A stretch of 64,000 bases of DNA from Lachnospiraceae bacterium AC2028 (GTDB lineage Bacteria; Bacillota; Clostridia; Lachnospirales; Lachnospiraceae): assembly GCA_000702685.1 (NCBI GenBank), contig JNJD01000001.1:1-64000 (forward strand), written 5' to 3'. The notes under the pieces were generated by a model. That model worked only from the letters and a program-made list of their open reading frames with translations. It searched no databases and was not told the DNA's origin. This document shows positions 1-15,429 of the stretch, piece after piece (position 1 is the first letter of the stretch; each line of letters opens with the position of its first letter). A program made the translations under genes and the position numbers.

Positions 1-279
1 TATCAACACGCTTACTACAGAACTGAACTCCAAAAGCACGGCATAACACAGTCCATGTCGCGAAAAGGAAATTGCTATGACAACTGCATTATGGAAACGT
101 TCTTTGGCAGGTTAAAGAATGAGATGTACTATGGCTATGAGAAAGAATACAAATCTTTTGGAGAGTTCAAAAAGGCCGTTGAAAAATATATATACTACTA
201 CAACAACGAAAGAATCCAAGCAAAAACAAAATGGATGCCCCCTGTAAAGTACAGGGAAGCATCCATGTGTTCCGCCTAA
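1..279 (+). CDS. IS3-family (IS150-like) transposase, C-terminal fragment
   Basis: The reading frame is open from base 1, so this is the last 92 codons of a transposase cut by the window edge; the first ATG at 55 is internal. The fragment has the C-terminal part of the rve/DDE integrase core: the SRKGNCYDN stretch followed by METFFGRLKNE, which holds the catalytic Glu of the DDE triad in IS3 OrfB proteins. It then has the usual Y-rich tail (IYYYNNERIQ, then KWMPPVKYR) that closes this family. The first two catalytic Asp residues would lie outside the window. The protein would cut and join IS ends. Whether the whole element is intact cannot be judged from here. Confidence 0.93.
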   Translation, partial: YQHAYYRTELQKHGITQSMSRKGNCYDNCIMETFFGRLKNEMYYGYEKEYKSFGEFKKAVEKYIYYYNNERIQAKTKWMPPVKYREASMCSA

Positions 280-345: not shown

Positions 346-1407
346 CTATAAAAATTCTTCGGCAAATCTTTTGGGATCCATTTCGTACAGTTCTTCGCCG
401 AGGGCATCACTTATCTCAATAAGCATTCTCTCGTATGTACACTGAAGAGGTGATACTTCGTTTTCATTTCCGGTGTTCATCCTGTTCGCACATCCGCAGG
501 AATTGGTGCAGCGCTTTACAAGATCGCAGTCTATGCATGTGGCAGGGGTTGAAGCTCTCTTCGAGATCTCGATCAGTTTTTCATCGTTGACCCCGTCATA
601 TACATTGCCGAGCAGATAATCCGGGTCACCTATGAATGAAGTACAGGGATACAGCTCTCCGGCAGGTGTGACCGGCATCTGTCTGACTCCGAGATGACAC
701 TTCTCGGACGGATTCTTATCCCTGATGCATTCACCTATCTTGGAATAGATGGGACCCACAAAGATCTTATCGCCCTTTATGAAAAGTTCCCTGATATAAT
801 CACAGGTCTGTTTAAGCTGCTCTCTTAAAGCATCGAGATCTTCGTCCGTCCAGTTGACCTTTTTTCCGTAAGCGATAACCAGGGAAATATGCTTAAATCC
901 AAGTTCATGAAGATATCTGACTGACTCGGCGTAATAAGGTACCGCCTGCGGAGCGATCGTTGCAAGCGCGGTCGCATCCGGCATGTATTTCAGAAGAAGC
1001 TTTGCCTTCTCCTCAACAACGGATGAAGTGGGACTTCCGCCCACGAATACCCTGCAGATATCCTGTGCCTTTCCGTCAAAAGAAAGACCTATTCCCATCT
1101 TCGCCTTAACTGCACGCTTAAGAAATTCCTCATCAAGGAGGGAGCCGTTTGTGGTCATCTTACAGTCAAATCTCATGCCCGTCTCTTTGACCTTATCCTC
1201 ACAGTAGTCCAGCGCTTTATAGATAAGATCCTTTTTCAAAAGCGGTTCCCCGCCAAAAAAGCACAGTCCCGCTCTGAGACCCTTTGAAAAAGCCAGATCA
1301 CATGCCTTTAAAAGAACTTCTTCCGACATGTCCGTCGCACATTTCTCGCGAAGACAGTAGGCACAGTCCATGTTGCAGTTTTCGGTAAGATGTAATGTAA
1401 AATTCAT
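346..1407 (-). CDS. Radical SAM/SPASM enzyme, probable peptide maturase
   Basis: A 353-residue protein of the radical SAM superfamily. The 4Fe-4S/SAM motif CxxxCxxC starts very early (C11, C15, C18), and FFGGEPLL follows near residue 50. The C-terminal part is a full SPASM domain: a Cys in YPCTSF, the LGNVYDG segment, then CIDC, CTNSCGC and a last Cys near residue 325, enough ligands for auxiliary clusters. This layout is typical of peptide and sulfatase maturases. It lies 34 bp downstream of a small lipoprotein gene on the same strand, which is the best candidate substrate. An anaerobic sulfatase-maturase role is less likely because no sulfatase is in view. The exact chemistry is unknown. 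Confidence 0.85.
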   Translation of the reverse strand: MNFTLHLTENCNMDCAYCLREKCATDMSEEVLLKACDLAFSKGLRAGLCFFGGEPLLKKDLIYKALDYCEDKVKETGMRFDCKMTTNGSLLDEEFLKRAVKAKMGIGLSFDGKAQDICRVFVGGSPTSSVVEEKAKLLLKYMPDATALATIAPQAVPYYAESVRYLHELGFKHISLVIAYGKKVNWTDEDLDALREQLKQTCDYIRELFIKGDKIFVGPIYSKIGECIRDKNPSEKCHLGVRQMPVTPAGELYPCTSFIGDPDYLLGNVYDGVNDEKLIEISKRASTPATCIDCDLVKRCTNSCGCANRMNTGNENEVSPLQCTYERMLIEISDALGEELYEMDPKRFAEEFL

Positions 1408-1441: not shown

Positions 1442-1834
1442 TCAGGGCTCATACACGGGAGCGCCACCGTCAAGAACAAGATGGTCAAAAGGCTCATAAT
1501 ACGCAATCGCTTCCTGCTCCTCCGGTTCGCCAATATCCGTGATATCGTCCTTATCTTCAGAATCTTCAATACACAGCGATACATCTCCGTCAGGTTGAAC
1601 CTTCCCTGCATCCGGATCGGTATAAATTTCAAATCCGCCGGCATAGTCAATGCTCGGACCGACCGGTTCGGCAATGTCACCCGACAGCGTAAGTTCCTGC
1701 TCCTCCGGAGCACCCAGTGTTGTTGCGCCTTCAAGCTGAGAACCGCATCCGGTAACCGTAACGGCTACCATAGCTGCAGCAAGTGCTACTGCATAACCGG
1801 GTTTCTTATATCCTTCTGCTTTTGTAATCTTCAT
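1442..1834 (-). CDS. Small lipoprotein, candidate substrate of the adjacent radical SAM enzyme
   Basis: A 130-residue acidic protein. I chose the ATG at 1834 because a GGAGGG ribosome site sits just upstream; an in-frame start at 1876 has none. The N-terminus is a lipoprotein signal peptide with the lipobox Cys at about residue 30 (VTGC). The mature part is rich in Glu, Asp and Gly and contains two near copies of G-x-P-E-E-Q-E (GAPEEQELTL and GEPEEQEAIAY). It ends in GGAPVYEP. There is one further Cys. I recognise no named family. Its position directly before a SPASM-type radical SAM gene suggests that it is modified, but that is inference. Confidence 0.72.
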   Translation of the reverse strand: MKITKAEGYKKPGYAVALAAAMVAVTVTGCGSQLEGATTLGAPEEQELTLSGDIAEPVGPSIDYAGGFEIYTDPDAGKVQPDGDVSLCIEDSEDKDDITDIGEPEEQEAIAYYEPFDHLVLDGGAPVYEP

Positions 1835-9601: not shown

Positions 9602-11557
9602 CTATTCCACCTTCATGAATTGCACATAGTCCTTCTCAGTCATGGGCTTTGCATAATAGAAGCCCTGGATGAAATCACATCCCTGAGATTCGAACCAATC
9701 GGATACCTCCTTTGATTCTACACCTTCCACGACAATATGTGCACCCATACTCTTGATAAGATTTATGGCTTCGCCGAGAATACGTCTCTTTGAAGGATCC
9801 TCAGCCTCATCGGTAAGTGTCTTATCAAGCTTTATGACCTTATAAGGGAAGGACATGACCCTGTGAAGATTGGAATAACCCGAACCGTAATCATCGAGCG
9901 AGAATCTGATGCCTTCGGCGCTCATCTGGTTCATGGTCTCAAGTACTCTTTCGTATGCTCCGTCCGCAGCGGTCTCGGTGATCTCAAAATTGATCCAGGA
10001 AGGATCGATACTGTACTCCTTCATGTATCTCTTGATCTTATCGGCCATATCGGCCTGCATGCACTGGATGATGGACAGATTGACTTCAACATAATCAACC
10101 CCGAGTTCATCCGGATGATGCTCGGAAAGGAATCTGCAGACATCGCGGATTACAAAATCTCCGATATGAACAATCCTTCCGGTCCTCTCTGCGGCGGGAA
10201 TGAATATAGAAGGCGATATGGATCCGAACTCTTCGGAATTAAGTCTTATGAGGGCCTCGGCACATCTGTACTCTTTGTCCTTGAGCGAATAGATGGGCTG
10301 ATAATACATCTCAAATCTGTTGTGCCTGATAGCATCCTCGATTATGTTGTCGATGGAATTGAGGATGACAAATTCCCTGTCAAAAGAGATCTCAGAATAT
10401 CTTACGGGCTTCCAGGGCTCAACAAGGTTCTGTACTCTCTCGGAAAACTGGAGGAGCTCATCCTTACTGGAAATATCCTCCGGAACAAGAACGGAGCAGA
10501 TGCACATCTCAAGCTTGAGATCGAATCCGCCTCCGGAGAATCCTTCGGAATATCTCTTTACGAGCTTGCCGAGCTGCTTCTTGATAAGATCGCGGTCGAA
10601 GCGGCCCTGAATGATATTGGCGAAAAGTCCGCCCCTTAAGTAATAGAAATCGGAAGATACAAGAAGTCCCCTGTATCTTTCCTTTACGAGAGTATCACCG
10701 ATGGAATGCAGCATACGCCTGTAGACCTTGATATCGGTAAGACTGCGGATCTCGGCATCATTTGCGATCTTGCAAAGTATGATGACTGCGTTTCGTCCGC
10801 TGAGGATCACGTTTTCAACATCATTCTCGAAGGGAATGAAGGATGAAAGACCGGTCTCGAGATCGATCGATTCATCGGGTCTGAATACGAAGAATGCGAG
10901 CAAAAGAATGGAAAGCGAAGCTCCGAACATTGCGGTAAGAAGCTCAGGATAGAATTCCTGTATCATTATCGCAACGACATTTACGGGATATACGAGAAGC
11001 ATAGCAAGGAACTTCTCGGTGCTGAGACGCTTTCTGATGATAAACAGCTGTACTAAGCTGAATACCATGAAGTAAAAACCGAAGTAATCGAAGTATGACA
11101 TCATACTTCCGCGTACATAACAGAGACCGTTTTCCGTGACGGTATAATAAAACAATTTCTGTGTAAAGAAATTGGAATAGACGAGTGCAAGATACCCGAT
11201 AAGGGGTACGAAGTAAAAGAATCCGATCCTGATATCGGATTTGATCCTGCTCCACGTTCCGCTCATGATGCCGTAAAGCCGGATAAGCAGAGGAAGCTGT
11301 ACCGCTCTTAAGAAGCAGAAGATATATCCCATAATGAAACGGAATAATATCGATGATCCGACTGCCGTGTATTCGTTGTAGGGAATGGAACGGAGAATAT
11401 CAAAAAGACAGCTGAAGATCATTAAGATCGTTAGCTGGATGAATGATCTGTTGAGCCTGCCCAGATACATCTTGCGGAGCAATAATGACACCACGATTGC
11501 AAAGAGCATGCACACAGAACAGATATCAAAATATATAATCCTGTCCACTATTTGCAC
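9602..11557 (-). CDS. Membrane-bound c-di-GMP phosphodiesterase (degenerate GGDEF + EAL)
   Basis: About 651 residues: seven or so membrane helices (1-230), a GGDEF-like domain whose active-site loop reads RGGLFA and so should be inactive, and a full EAL domain (about 400-645). The EAL part has EALIRL, EITE, DDYGSGYSNL, KLDK, EGVE and QGFYYAKP, so metal and substrate ligands appear complete and it should hydrolyse c-di-GMP to pGpG. I prefer the GTG start at 11557 with GGGGGA upstream. A TTG at 11596 lies upstream of the likely transcription start and lacks a ribosome site. It is followed after one base by the hybrid kinase gene. Confidence 0.87.
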   Translation of the reverse strand: MQIVDRIIYFDICSVCMLFAIVVSLLLRKMYLGRLNRSFIQLTILMIFSCLFDILRSIPYNEYTAVGSSILFRFIMGYIFCFLRAVQLPLLIRLYGIMSGTWSRIKSDIRIGFFYFVPLIGYLALVYSNFFTQKLFYYTVTENGLCYVRGSMMSYFDYFGFYFMVFSLVQLFIIRKRLSTEKFLAMLLVYPVNVVAIMIQEFYPELLTAMFGASLSILLLAFFVFRPDESIDLETGLSSFIPFENDVENVILSGRNAVIILCKIANDAEIRSLTDIKVYRRMLHSIGDTLVKERYRGLLVSSDFYYLRGGLFANIIQGRFDRDLIKKQLGKLVKRYSEGFSGGGFDLKLEMCICSVLVPEDISSKDELLQFSERVQNLVEPWKPVRYSEISFDREFVILNSIDNIIEDAIRHNRFEMYYQPIYSLKDKEYRCAEALIRLNSEEFGSISPSIFIPAAERTGRIVHIGDFVIRDVCRFLSEHHPDELGVDYVEVNLSIIQCMQADMADKIKRYMKEYSIDPSWINFEITETAADGAYERVLETMNQMSAEGIRFSLDDYGSGYSNLHRVMSFPYKVIKLDKTLTDEAEDPSKRRILGEAINLIKSMGAHIVVEGVESKEVSDWFESQGCDFIQGFYYAKPMTEKDYVQFMKVE

Positions 11558-11586
11558 GAGTAAATAGTCCCCCACTGACAGTTTTA

Positions 11587-11592
11587 AGTATA
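11587..11592 (-). promoter_or_regulatory. Extended -10 element upstream of the EAL/hybrid kinase operon
   Basis: TATACT preceded by TGA on the minus strand; the -35 region is poor. It supports a start downstream of 11580 and hence the GTG start of the EAL gene. Confidence 0.5.
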
Positions 11593-11631
11593 TCAATTAA
11601 AAACAGTTAAAATCTACTTAAATATCAAAAA

Positions 11632-11668
11632 AAGCAAAAAAACTGCAGGGCTTAAACCCTGCAGTTTT
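11632..11668 (-). terminator. Intrinsic terminator of the small membrane protein gene
   Basis: A perfect 12-bp stem (11639-11650 with 11657-11668) and a 6-base loop, followed by a run of T on the minus strand. Confidence 0.9.
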
Positions 11669-11680
11669 CGTTGAAAACGA

Positions 11681-12155: not shown

Positions 12156-13268
12156 TTAAAAAAGTATGTCTTTAAAACAAATTAGCGGTTTATTGTTTAC
12201 ATAATCAAAGCTGTGATGTGCTCCGCCGGCACACCATTTCTCATATTCACATTCGGAACAGTCCTTATTTCTCTCGGAAAGATGCTTTCTGAACGTCTCA
12301 AAGCGGTTATTCCAGATATCGGTAAACGATTCGTTCATTACATTTCCGAATATCGTCTCCGGTCCGGGCATGATATCAAGACATCCCGTGACCGAACCGT
12401 CCGCCCTGATGCTCGCCGTAAAAACTCCGGCATTGCACAGGAACATTCTGTTACGGACATTTCCCTCCAGATCTGTACCGAGGAAATGCGAACAGCCGTA
12501 TTCTACAGGCAGTCCCGCTCTCCTTTTTTCCAGGATAAAAGAAAACATTCTTCTCTGATCCTCGGGAGTAAGCAGCATATCGGGATGATCGAGCGCTCTT
12601 CCTATGGGTTCTATTCCGATGACTCTCCACGAATCGATATCCATAGCGTTTACGATCTCGAACAGCTCGTCGAGTTCGACAATGTTCTTATGGTTGATGA
12701 CCGTGGTGATCTGTATGGCATGAAAGCAGTCTTCATCGATGAGATTCTGAATGCCTCTCATCGCAAGATCGTATCCACCCTTAAGTCCGCGCTGGGCATC
12801 GTGGGTATCGCGAAGTCCGTCTATGCTGACGGAGATCGTACCCATTCCGCACTCTTTTAACCTGCGTGCGTTTTCCTTCGTGATAAGGGTCGCATTGGAA
12901 GTCATGCCCCATCCGAATCCCTTTTCATGCACCATCCCGACAATGTCGAAGAAATCCTTGCGCAGCATCGGCTCCCCGCCGGTTATGCAGATCTGGATCC
13001 TCTTTTTGTCAAAATTCGCCGCAACTTCATCAAGGATCTCACCGTATTTTTCTACCGAAAGACCCGTGGGTGCATCGAGAGCGCAATGGGAACCGCAGTG
13101 AAAACAGTGCTCGTTACAGCTCAGTGTCAGTTCGAAAAAAAGATGCCTGAGGTCAGGCTCTTTATAAAGTCTTTCCCTGACCTCAGACCTTCTGTTGAGT
13201 ACATCTTCTTTGATTCCCATGACACCGGGTACTTCTGCGGAAAATTTTTTAAATTCTTCGAGTGTCAT
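12156..13268 (-). CDS. Radical SAM/SPASM enzyme of an rSAM/lipoprotein system
   Basis: 370 residues. A 45-residue N-terminal extension precedes LTLSCNEHCFHCGSHC, which holds the CxxxCxxC SAM-cluster ligands (C51, C55, C58) plus a fourth Cys at 62. The HCGSxC form is, as I recall it, characteristic of the radical SAM enzymes of the rSAM/lipoprotein system (TIGR04133) best known from Bacteroidetes. ITGGEPMLRKDF follows. The C-terminus has SPASM-type cysteines: CLDIMPG, CSECEYEKWCAGG and a last Cys 6 residues from the end. Its ATG overlaps the TGA of the YGPP lipoprotein gene, and GGAGAAG lies just upstream. The coupling makes the lipoprotein the probable substrate. The modification it makes is unknown. 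Confidence 0.85.
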   Translation of the reverse strand: MTLEEFKKFSAEVPGVMGIKEDVLNRRSEVRERLYKEPDLRHLFFELTLSCNEHCFHCGSHCALDAPTGLSVEKYGEILDEVAANFDKKRIQICITGGEPMLRKDFFDIVGMVHEKGFGWGMTSNATLITKENARRLKECGMGTISVSIDGLRDTHDAQRGLKGGYDLAMRGIQNLIDEDCFHAIQITTVINHKNIVELDELFEIVNAMDIDSWRVIGIEPIGRALDHPDMLLTPEDQRRMFSFILEKRRAGLPVEYGCSHFLGTDLEGNVRNRMFLCNAGVFTASIRADGSVTGCLDIMPGPETIFGNVMNESFTDIWNNRFETFRKHLSERNKDCSECEYEKWCAGGAHHSFDYVNNKPLICFKDILF

Positions 13269-13714
13269 GGTTCTTCTCCGTTCATCATTTCGGGCGGTCC
13301 GTAGACATCACCCATGGGCTGGTCGACATCGTCGATGATGTCATCGGGGGGCGGTCCGTAGACCGGATCCATCGGCTGCTGGATATCATCACCGTCATTA
13401 TGGCTGAACCATTCGGGCGGTCCGTAAACAGTCTCTATGGGTTCATCGGTATCGTCGCCGTCAAACCACTCGGGAGGTCCGTAAACCTCTTCGCCGGGTT
13501 CGTCGATATCATCGTCAATGATGAGAGGCGGACCGTAATCCGTCTGCATGGGTCCGTCGGGATCCTCATTTTCGAAATACTCGGGAGGTCCGTATACATC
13601 GGGGGTGGGTAGATCCTCGGGAGGAGGACCGTACATGCATGCGTTAAGACCAAACAACGCACCCGCGACTGTAAGTGAAGATTTGAATAACAGATTTGCT
13701 TTCGTTTTTTTCAT
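13265..13714 (-). CDS. Lipoprotein with seven YGPP motifs, probable radical SAM substrate
   Basis: 149 residues. The ATG at 13714 has an AGGTGA site 5-6 bases upstream; an in-frame GTG at 13723 is the alternative. A signal peptide ends at the lipobox LNAC (Cys26), and the mature chain starts at once with CMYGPPP. Seven YGPP motifs follow, with Tyr at about 28, 41, 60, 78, 97, 119 and 138, mostly 18-19 residues apart. Four of the seven are VYGPPE followed by an aromatic or Met pair (YF, WF, WF, MM). Linkers are strongly acidic. I recall that rSAM/lipoprotein substrates in Bacteroidetes carry a similar Cys-x-Tyr-Gly-x-Pro start, usually once. Seven copies suggest repeated modification on a surface protein. 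Confidence 0.8.
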   Translation of the reverse strand: MKKTKANLLFKSSLTVAGALFGLNACMYGPPPEDLPTPDVYGPPEYFENEDPDGPMQTDYGPPLIIDDDIDEPGEEVYGPPEWFDGDDTDEPIETVYGPPEWFSHNDGDDIQQPMDPVYGPPPDDIIDDVDQPMGDVYGPPEMMNGEEP

Positions 13715-13731
13715 AACCGTCACCTCACATA

Positions 13732-15429
13732 CTATGACTGTTCAACTTCTTTATCCCTGTAATCCGGATGATCGAGCACATCCTCAAATTCATTCTTTTT
13801 AAGCGGCTTGTTGAAAAAATATCCCTGGCCGCGAAGGCATCCGTACTTCTTCAGAAGCTTGATATGCTCGGGAATCTCGACACCTTCGGCGATGGTTGAC
13901 ATGCCGAGTTCTTCCGCCATCGATATTATATGCTTCATCATGACCATATCACGGTCGCTGATATCCGCTTTATCCAAGAAGCTCTTGTCGATCTTGATCT
14001 CGGTGAAGGGAATGTCCTTGATCATGCTCATCGATGAATATCCTACGCCGAAATCATCGACGGACACTTCAAATCCCGCTTCTCTGAACTGTTTAACGAT
14101 AGTGTTGAGTCTTATGAGATCCGATTCGTTGGTCGTCTCGGTTATCTCGATGACGATAAGCGAATGAGGCACCTTATATCTGTCCACTATCTCAACAACA
14201 TCCTTGACGAAGTATGGATTGGTAAGATGCTTTCTCGAGAAGTTGGAGGAAACCCTCACCGGATTCTTGCCTTCCTTTATCCAGCCTGCAATATCGGAGC
14301 AGACTCTTTCAAGTATGTAAAGGTCGAGTACGCAGATTCTCTTGCTCTGCTCGAGAACGGGAATGAAATCGTCCGGCATGATGTACTTGCCTTCGTGGTT
14401 CCATCTGCACAGAGCCTCGGCACCGATGAGCTTGTAATTATCGAGATTGATCTTGGGCTGGTAATATGCCTCGAATTCATGCTCCGTGATCGCGGTCTTA
14501 AAGCACGCTTCGATCAGTCTGGTCTTGTTCATCAGTTCCATCATGGACTGATCGTAATACTGTATCTGGAGCTTTTCCCTCTTTGCGATGAGCATGGAAG
14601 TCATTGCAAAGTCAACGGTCTCCAGAGGGCTCTTTTCCTCTCCCGTGCAATTGTAGACACCGCAATATGCACCGAGCTTTACGCGTCCGACTCCGCCGCC
14701 GTCAACATCGAAATGTTCACCTTTAAGCTTATCGATGATATCATCGGTCTTATCCTTCCTGCAGAGGATGCAGAAATTATCTCCGCCCATACGGCTGAGA
14801 TTCTCGGGCTGTGTGAGCATGCCGGAAACGATCGCGGTAAAGCGCATCATGACATCATCGGCTTCCGCTCTTCCGAGAAGGGTATTGAGACCGGAAATAT
14901 TTATAAGATTGAAAAAGATAACGGAATATTCGGAAAGCTTACCAAGCTTATGCACCATTCCTATCATCTTATTAAAATAAAATTCATTGAAAAAGCCGTG
15001 TCCCATCTCATGGAAGACCGCATAGTCGATGAATTCCTTCATCCTTATACGGCTCTTGACGGTAGTCATAATGAGAAGGAAGCCTCTTACAAGCTCTCTT
15101 TCTTCCGTATCCCATTCATAACCGGCCTTGGGGAAAATGGATATCTTGATGATCGCGCCTGTGGACATGACGATACGGTTGACCACGCAGTCATCTTCAT
15201 TGATTTTATCCGAATTGTACAGAAAATCCTGCGAAGAAGGTTCGTCAGCGATCTCTTCGTTCATATCCGAATATTCGGAAAGAACTACACGGCCGATCTT
15301 AAGAAGATCGTTCAGCTCGCGTGAATACTCATCGTCACGGTCGCTCTTGTAAATAACGACTCCCGCTTCCTTGCAGAAAAAATCATATAATTTTGCTTTT
15401 ATGACTTCACTGTTCGTCATGTTTTCCAT
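13732..15429 (-). CDS. Cytosolic c-di-GMP phosphodiesterase (degenerate GGDEF + EAL)
   Basis: 565 residues with no membrane helices. An N-terminal region of about 130 residues is followed by a GGDEF-like domain whose signature is GGDNF, so cyclase activity is unlikely. The EAL domain (about 305-555) has EALCRW, EITETTNESD, DDFGVGYSSM, KIDKSFL, EGVE and QGYFFNKP and so should degrade c-di-GMP. It lies 31 bp after the GH3 gene and 17 bp before the YGPP lipoprotein gene, with no terminator on either side, so the four genes may form one operon. TATAAT with TG one base before it at about 15437-15442 could be an additional internal promoter giving a very short leader. Confidence 0.87.
   Translation of the reverse strand: MENMTNSEVIKAKLYDFFCKEAGVVIYKSDRDDEYSRELNDLLKIGRVVLSEYSDMNEEIADEPSSQDFLYNSDKINEDDCVVNRIVMSTGAIIKISIFPKAGYEWDTEERELVRGFLLIMTTVKSRIRMKEFIDYAVFHEMGHGFFNEFYFNKMIGMVHKLGKLSEYSVIFFNLINISGLNTLLGRAEADDVMMRFTAIVSGMLTQPENLSRMGGDNFCILCRKDKTDDIIDKLKGEHFDVDGGGVGRVKLGAYCGVYNCTGEEKSPLETVDFAMTSMLIAKREKLQIQYYDQSMMELMNKTRLIEACFKTAITEHEFEAYYQPKINLDNYKLIGAEALCRWNHEGKYIMPDDFIPVLEQSKRICVLDLYILERVCSDIAGWIKEGKNPVRVSSNFSRKHLTNPYFVKDVVEIVDRYKVPHSLIVIEITETTNESDLIRLNTIVKQFREAGFEVSVDDFGVGYSSMSMIKDIPFTEIKIDKSFLDKADISDRDMVMMKHIISMAEELGMSTIAEGVEIPEHIKLLKKYGCLRGQGYFFNKPLKKNEFEDVLDHPDYRDKEVEQS

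Follow-up and report, generated by a model that had tools for sequence, protein, structure and literature searches.

Most of what is known about radical S-adenosylmethionine (SAM) chemistry on peptides comes from the making of secreted natural products and of cofactors. The closest named relative of the system described here is the radical SAM/lipoprotein pair TIGR04133/TIGR04134, an annotated and apparently uncharacterised system; neither family is named in any paper of the literature searched, which lacked most subscription journals. Reactions have been described for other SPASM enzymes. The splicease PlpXY is reported to act on the motifs MYG and LYG, to accept GYG and to work without a leader; PIRPGYGLPI is one tag on which it works (PMC10533398). 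Two further sources describe triceptide SPASM enzymes as linking residues i and i+2 (PMC11002830) and the mycofactocin enzyme MftC as oxidatively decarboxylating Tyr and then linking it to the adjacent Val (PMC8326336). Here we analysed a window of 64,000 nucleotides, the whole stretch of DNA under study, from the rumen bacterium Lachnospiraceae bacterium AC2028 (assembly GCA_000702685.1, contig JNJD01000001.1, positions 1 to 64,000), in which the gene for a radical SAM/SPASM enzyme adjoins the gene for a lipoprotein carrying the motif Tyr-Gly-Pro-Pro (YGPP) seven times. The motif belongs to what is apparently a portable tag on ordinary proteins, and we consider it likely that the enzyme modifies such tags at Tyr.

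The two genes overlap by 4 nt (ATGA), with the ATG of the enzyme lying within the TGA of the lipoprotein, as had been noticed in an earlier reading made from the letters of the DNA without database searches (the sequence-only reading). The seven tyrosines stand exactly where that reading had placed them, with Tyr-to-Tyr spacings of 13, 19, 18, 19, 22 and 19, and its start of the mature chain, Cys-Met-Tyr-Gly-Pro-Pro, agrees with the lipobox L-N-A-C, from which the mature chain begins at Cys26 as C-M-Y-G-P-P. The mature 124 residues include 37 Asp or Glu, no Lys or Arg and one Cys, and the lipoprotein has no folded domain. Composition alone predicts 0.036 YGPP where seven are observed, and 50,000 shuffles gave at most two YGPP per shuffle. 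A chance origin of the repeat was thus ruled out.

The enzyme has the CxxxCxxC motif, the barrel and the SPASM cysteines of the radical SAM/SPASM superfamily (Pfam: Radical_SAM 1.6e-19, SPASM 3.2e-10). Its cluster motif, written CxxHCGSxC in the sequence-only reading, reads C51NEHC55FHC58GSHC62, and Cys 259, 346 and 364, which lie outside the Pfam SPASM stretch, are also invariant in the alignment. The predicted structure (pLDDT 93.5) has SkfB, anSME and SuiB as its closest solved folds, at 24% identity or less. Because only two helices precede the barrel in this structure, we recognised no RRE or other leader-binding module in it, by our own reading.

Table 1. Coordinates of the lipoprotein and enzyme features in the window.
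Feature	Position	Strand	Remarks
Tag-bearing lipoprotein, 149 aa	13265..13714	minus	ATG at 13714; seven YGPP
Lipoprotein signal peptide, residues 1-25, lipobox LNA/C	13640..13714	minus	sequence reading and alignment
Codon of predicted lipidated Cys26	13637..13639	minus	Cys invariant in 33 aligned lipoproteins
YGPP motif 1 (Tyr28), context C-M-YGPP	13622..13633	minus	
YGPP motif 2 (Tyr41)	13583..13594	minus	
YGPP motif 3 (Tyr60)	13526..13537	minus	
YGPP motif 4 (Tyr78)	13472..13483	minus	
YGPP motif 5 (Tyr97)	13415..13426	minus	
YGPP motif 6 (Tyr119)	13349..13360	minus	
YGPP motif 7 (Tyr138)	13292..13303	minus	
Radical SAM/SPASM enzyme, 370 aa, sister of TIGR04133	12156..13268	minus	ATGA overlap with lipoprotein gene
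Radical SAM cluster CxxxCxxC (C51, C55, C58)	13095..13118	minus	invariant in 50 aligned sequences
SPASM domain	12246..12437	minus	Pfam; Cys 278, 296, 337 and 340 invariant

Among NCBIfam families, TIGR04133 was the best match of the enzyme, at 270.8 bits against a cut-off of 425, and the lipoprotein matched no family up to E=10, TIGR04134 included. On these scores the window system is placed as a sister of the TIGR04133/TIGR04134 pair, not as a member of it; of the likeness proposed in the sequence-only reading, the relatedness stands and membership does not. Three true pairs were read for comparison (Treponema saccharophilum, CYGMP; Parabacteroides distasonis, CEYGSP; Phocaeicola massiliensis, CEYGTP). 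They exceed both cut-offs, with enzymes at 451.4-617.5 bits on TIGR04133; scores of 220.6-286.9 bits were obtained for eight further enzymes from the wider clade. In a quick tree the three TIGR04133 enzymes were joined (support 100) and the Firmicute and Coriobacteriia enzymes fell into their own group of 79 (support 94), with TIGR04103 outside it; the tree has long branches (MftC above all, L137 and others) that make finer placement unsafe, and we rely only on its split between TIGR04133 and the sister group. The expectation that known lipoproteins carry Cys-x-Tyr-Gly-x-Pro once is correct for two of the three read, the third having Cys-Tyr-Gly-x-Pro, and the motif is indeed multiplied here, with up to seven copies versus one in the TIGR04134 proteins read.

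We surveyed the co-occurrence of tag and enzyme in samples of 196 genomes from the order, 249 from the family and 398 from the phylum, some genomes being shared between samples. In the order sample the enzyme (>250 bits on TIGR04133) was present in six genomes, and a YGPP lipoprotein adjoins it in all six; some of these lipoproteins were read by eye, the lipoprotein profile (A2) having missed or barely scored them. The profile is not fully sensitive, as it missed the lipoprotein of genome G134, which has two YGPP. Seven enzyme-free order genomes had matches to this profile, and none of them carries YGPP. Besides the six genomes with the enzyme, seven in the order sample have only weaker relatives of TIGR04133 (174-193 bits, 482-525 aa), which were not counted as the enzyme; G134 has such a relative besides its true enzyme, and no YGPP was found at the loci of these weaker relatives.

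In the family sample, tag matches at E<=0.01 occurred in 10 of the 16 genomes with the enzyme versus none of the 233 without it (Fisher 3.8e-14, indicative only, the genomes being related). The six remaining genomes with the enzyme, read individually, have a single or variant tag, degenerate in one. A lipoprotein of G401 has YGPA twice, and double zinc ribbons read CIYGPPP in G448, CIYGPMP in G298 and TIYGPKP in G236. G391 has a lipoprotein with LYAPPP, and its enzyme is read in two frames, reflecting sequence error or decay. In G248 (L136 1077-2532) the enzyme homologue is without CxxxCxxC and its neighbour reads NINQPRSGPPEMAG (RSGPP), with Val-Tyr gone; this one case is an apparent joint decay of enzyme and substrate site. 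The phylum sample contained the enzyme in two genomes, and the same two alone have tag matches at E<=0.01. Lipoproteins of this kind without a radical SAM partner, which the sequence-only reading had named as evidence that would speak against it, were found in none of the 190, 233 and 396 enzyme-free genomes of the three samples at the thresholds used. The pairing of tag protein and enzyme is a conserved system. Weaker tag matches were also inspected: those in the family sample (E 0.015-0.8; 13 enzyme-free genomes and G401) include no YGPP lipoprotein or zinc ribbon, and those in 14 genomes of the phylum sample (E 0.017-0.082) either do not lie in genes or fall in proteins where a motif occurs once by chance. 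One of the phylum matches is a lipoprotein reading TVYGALE, without YGPP (L197).

A scan for relatives of the enzyme, with one genome per species, gave 72 loci at 49-95% identity, apart from L073, an end piece of 228 bases that is 97% identical. At L061 and L073 the contig ends at the start of the enzyme, which leaves 70 informative loci, among which L024 is truncated and L043 has masked bases. Judged from record titles, most hosts are Lachnospiraceae, Oscillospiraceae, Erysipelotrichaceae and Coriobacteriia from rumen and gut; the system thus also occurs in Coriobacteriia, in addition to the Firmicutes named in the sequence-only reading. A tag protein lies directly upstream on the same strand at 62 of the 70 loci, with literal YGPP at 60 and with variants at L056 (YGIP and YGV) and L066 (YAGP). 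The eight loci without a tag neighbour were considered as counter-examples and set aside, since seven of these eight genomes encode a tag protein elsewhere. A recurrent third gene was likewise considered and rejected: the commonest other neighbour family occurs at 10 of the 72 loci (open reading frames of 80 aa or more), and no small downstream open reading frame recurs at more than 2 of 68 loci.

The consensus of the tag was drawn from 239 tag units. The units were chosen by YGP[PAES] or YAGP, so that the constancy of Tyr, Gly and Pro is partly by construction. The core is V-Y-G-P-P, with a weaker context of [Y/F]-D-P-x-[D/E]-N-x4 ahead and x-x-F behind: Val precedes Tyr in 90% of the units, Asn is found at -6 in 59%, Asp-Pro at -10/-9 in 38-39% and Phe at +6 in 35%. 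Position -1 can also be L, D, I, E, A, M or G (CGYGPP), +1 can be Ala, and +2 and +3 are variable. Variants include YAGP, YAPP, YGIP, YGVP, YGSP, YGTP, YGMP, YGPM and YGPK, and the stalks of VanY-fused proteins also read YGVD and YGVE. Tyr is the one residue common to every variant accepted as a tag, and for this reason it is the putative site of modification.

The motifs are conserved beyond their surroundings in the nearest homologues of the window system (L003 and L004, enzyme 95% identical), which keep all 28 YGPP residues. In the three pairs formed by the window, L003 and L004, the motifs differ by 8, 8 and 9 silent codon changes, and the linkers differ in amino acid at 32 of 92, 32 of 93 and 21 of 93 positions. 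The absence of amino-acid changes in the motifs is meaningful for these three pairs, in which all seven motifs align, and is by construction in four other pairs. Copy number varies among the 68 proteins compared, which come from 63 loci including that of the window: YGPP occurs 0 times in three proteins, once in nine, twice in five, three times in 28, four times in six, five times in seven, six times in six and seven times in four. Three copies are thus commonest, and the seven of the window lipoprotein are at the top of the range.

The tag is found on short lipoproteins, VanY-type peptidases, DUF805 membrane proteins, an Ig-like protein and double zinc ribbons (Zn_Ribbon_1/DZR). In detail, it is carried by lipoproteins with a D-Ala-D-Ala carboxypeptidase domain (Peptidase_M15_4; L056, L063), by DUF805 proteins (L067, L130 and, by sequence, L145), seven times by a Big_2 protein (L012), as CVYGPG by a Big_14 lipoprotein (L121), and by zinc-ribbon proteins without signal peptide (L134, L135, L138). 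In genome G028 a lipoprotein and a zinc ribbon both have the wider consensus FDPSGNMNAATYGPP. A lipoprotein-only system is ruled out by the zinc-ribbon, DUF805 and Ig-like carriers. The altered lipoprotein that the sequence-only reading had foreseen as the product would therefore be one carrier class, an incomplete description in view of the DUF805 proteins and the zinc ribbons without signal peptide. Elsewhere in the genome of the window (G000 contig 8, 131044), unlinked to the pair, another lipoprotein is encoded in which a single VYGPP is combined with a large C-terminal part, and this genome has only one enzyme of this kind; the window enzyme therefore probably modifies one or more further lipoproteins in trans, one enzyme probably serving several proteins. 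Separately, on an IMG/VR contig classed as viral (L169 3997-6059), the enzyme adjoins a zinc-ribbon-like protein in which YGSP occurs twice.

From these comparisons we infer that the enzyme would recognise a short, portable, leader-independent tag with the core V-Y-G-P-P, and that Tyr would be modified once per tag, in the cytoplasm, ahead of Sec export and lipidation. The window lipoprotein would then become a membrane-anchored, multiply modified acidic stalk with seven tags and without Lys or Arg. The lipid anchor and the presence of cell-wall peptidases and surface domains among the carriers suggest a role in the cell envelope, and a chemically reactive or stiffened surface stalk would be our guess.

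With regard to the reaction, the part of the proposal of which we are least sure, our first guess is tentative: by analogy, the enzyme may excise tyramine at X-Tyr-Gly in the manner of a splicease and leave an alpha-ketoamide. Splicease chemistry is put first because the PlpXY tag and the end of a Nostoc precursor, ALYGLPPELF, resemble the tag. This precursor, whose end is strikingly like the VYGPPEWF of the tag, is linked to a TIGR04103 enzyme that is followed by a 71-aa protein. PlpX corresponds to IPR026482, which we take to be the same family as TIGR04103. Both splicease and cyclophane chemistry had been suggested in the sequence-only reading; by these likenesses the former gained motif support, and the latter lost a little through the Gly at i+2 in YAGP. 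In its widest form, which we regard as doubtful, the idea would be one of leaderless backbone editing in gut Firmicutes and Coriobacteriia, in which a lone enzyme might excise tyramine at every VYGPP of lipoproteins, zinc-ribbon proteins and membrane proteins alike, at one to seven sites in each chain, and thereby create surface stalks with reactive alpha-ketoamides. To our knowledge this would, if true, be the first splicease on ordinary cellular proteins, without a partner protein and with many sites per chain. As a separate observation, DUF1843 peptides (L182 184-604, L183 2196-2363) adjoin enzymes that share about 48% identity with the TIGR04103 protein of Nostoc; MLYGGAM, KPYGVAI and QPYGAGI near the start of these peptides are possible splicease sites.

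Several observations weigh against the modification of the tag or against its splicease form. The splicease parallel is weakened by the score of the enzyme on TIGR04103 (124.9 bits, cut-off 725) and by its grouping with TIGR04133 in the tree. PlpXY is a two-protein enzyme, and no PlpY-like gene was found beside the enzyme among the window neighbours or the small downstream open reading frames counted above. In PMC10533398, 14 of 16 splice-tag rows in FtsZ are marked '-', meaning not accepted by PlpXY, so that XYG alone is insufficient for that enzyme. One copy of the tag has decayed in each of L005, L008 and L009, in otherwise working-looking systems, and not every copy would therefore be needed. 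No tag protein was found in genomes G198 (L045) and G204 (L061), which have the enzyme. Conversely, genomes without the enzyme encode some ordinary proteins in which YGPP is present once, for example two aminotransferase-like proteins. Lipoproteins with C-x4-[V/I]-Y-G-K-P occur at L093, L095 and L098, in three genomes of one family (f8; G008, G030 and G053) that gave no TIGR04133 match at E<=1e-50 and are among the seven enzyme-free order genomes with matches to the lipoprotein profile. These lipoproteins may be look-alikes of the motif or substrates of another enzyme; their sequence continues C-x4-[V/I]-Y-G-K-P-L-D and then a long domain, hydrolase-like by eye. Finally, the zinc ribbons without signal peptide misfit a purely cell-surface role.

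If the Tyr of each tag is modified, other reactions have to be weighed beside tyramine excision. A crosslink of the cyclophane type known from triceptides, joining the Tyr ring by a C-C or ether bond to another part of its tag, would remove two hydrogens per site and leave the backbone intact. The repetition of the tags suits repeated crosslinks, Pro is nearly constant at the i+2 position used by triceptide enzymes (partly by construction), and the crosslink-forming families WgkB (112.4 bits), DynA (75.5) and PqqE (71.4) are among the 25 best for the enzyme. However, all three scores are below the cut-offs, the Gly at i+2 in YAGP has no beta-carbon, and the VanY-fused stalks with YGVD and YGVE do not fit, so that we consider such a crosslink rather unlikely. 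It also seems unlikely, to a slightly greater degree, that another radical reaction directed at Tyr or the backbone takes place, such as hydroxylation, epimerisation, C-C cleavage or a new reaction; this reading gains from the finding of no described reaction for TIGR04133/TIGR04134 in the literature searched, and from the low identity to the solved folds, which leaves the reaction unfixed.

A mycofactocin-like course, in which Tyr would be oxidised and then bonded to the preceding Val, or converted to dehydro-Tyr alone, would place redox-active groups along the stalk. MftC (TIGR03962) is the third-best family of the enzyme, and MftA (L180) ends in Val-Tyr, the pair that also predominates in the tags. 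Nevertheless, we regard this course as improbable: the 131.4 bits of the enzyme are below the TIGR03962 cut-off of 265, the residue at -1 may be G, A, D, E, L or M, the known decarboxylation is impossible at an internal Tyr, and an MftB-like gene was not recurrent beside the pair in the neighbour survey. Least probable of all is that no peptide is modified, YGPP serving as a motif for binding or for a polyproline stalk and being merely co-inherited with an enzyme that acts on a small molecule, for although the haem-precursor enzymes AhbD and NirJ rank among the best families and acidic proline-rich stalks are common at cell surfaces, this does not account for the adjacency of the genes, their co-occurrence even when unlinked, the same tag on unrelated proteins of enzyme-bearing genomes (including zinc ribbons without signal peptide) or the joint decay in G248.

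The modification of the tags at Tyr thus remains the preferred reading. YGPP lipoproteins with a radical SAM enzyme were not described among the literature matches listed, which does not establish their absence in print. What is new is that a sister subfamily exists in Gram-positive bacteria, that the tag is multiplied and has a wider consensus, that it occurs on unrelated proteins, among them zinc ribbons without signal peptide, and that it depends closely on the enzyme. The two-gene system is small enough for direct expression and weighing of the product, and would give the gut-bacterial group around TIGR04133/TIGR04134 a reaction. A leaderless tag that is tolerated by many host proteins would also be attractive for labelling.

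It should be mentioned that the pair lies between two minus-strand genes, one encoding an EAL protein and the other a GGDEF-EAL protein (window 9602-11596 and 13732-15429). EAL and glycosidase neighbours, and likewise the GGDEF-EAL neighbour, recur only within the window's own clade. A scan for promoters and terminators was uninformative save for one hairpin that resembles a terminator and lies past the next gene, at 11638-11669. About 11 kb away, a second radical SAM/SPASM gene (window 346-1407, minus strand; best NCBIfam family the PapB ranthipeptide maturase, 176.5 bits, cut-off 340) is directly preceded by the gene for an acidic lipoprotein (1442-1834, minus strand) reading MKITKAEGYKKPGYAVAL...TGCG...LVLDGGAPVYEP, possibly another radical SAM/lipoprotein pair. 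Relatives of this second enzyme at E<=1e-60 were found in 4 of 199 family genomes, the window's included; in G253 this relative, too, comes after a lipoprotein, whose start is similar (RYKNPGYPV), and no such lipoprotein was recognised in G320 and G299. Near the contig end, a short open reading frame (window 55-279, plus strand) resembles, by eye, the end of an integrase-core transposase.

In comparison with known systems, the window pair would share with the triceptides the action of a SPASM enzyme on short aromatic motifs, whereas the residue at i+2, the position of the crosslink partner, is Gly in some tags here (YAGP) and Pro in nearly all. Mycofactocin MftC/MftA has a related SPASM enzyme and a Val-Tyr core, but there the Tyr is C-terminal, MftB is a partner and the product is a cofactor, whereas the Tyr is internal here. 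The splicease PlpXY, whose hallmark is the loss of tyramine (about 135 Da), likewise has a SPASM enzyme and a site of X-Tyr-Gly with variable X and Pro closely after, and X-Tyr-Gly is present in all seven window motifs; its natural precursors, however, have Nif11 or nitrile-hydratase-like leaders and its partner PlpY is of the RRE type, whereas lipoproteins and other proteins carry the tag here. As in TIGR04133/TIGR04134, the radical SAM/SPASM gene adjoins a lipoprotein gene, and Tyr-Gly-x-Pro stands near the lipidated Cys, as C-M-Y-G-P-P in the window; this feature is drawn from three TIGR04134 members, not from a published rule. In those three members a single motif precedes a longer part that appears to be folded, in contrast to the up to seven motifs found here, and, unlike in that system, the tag of the window type is spread over several protein families.

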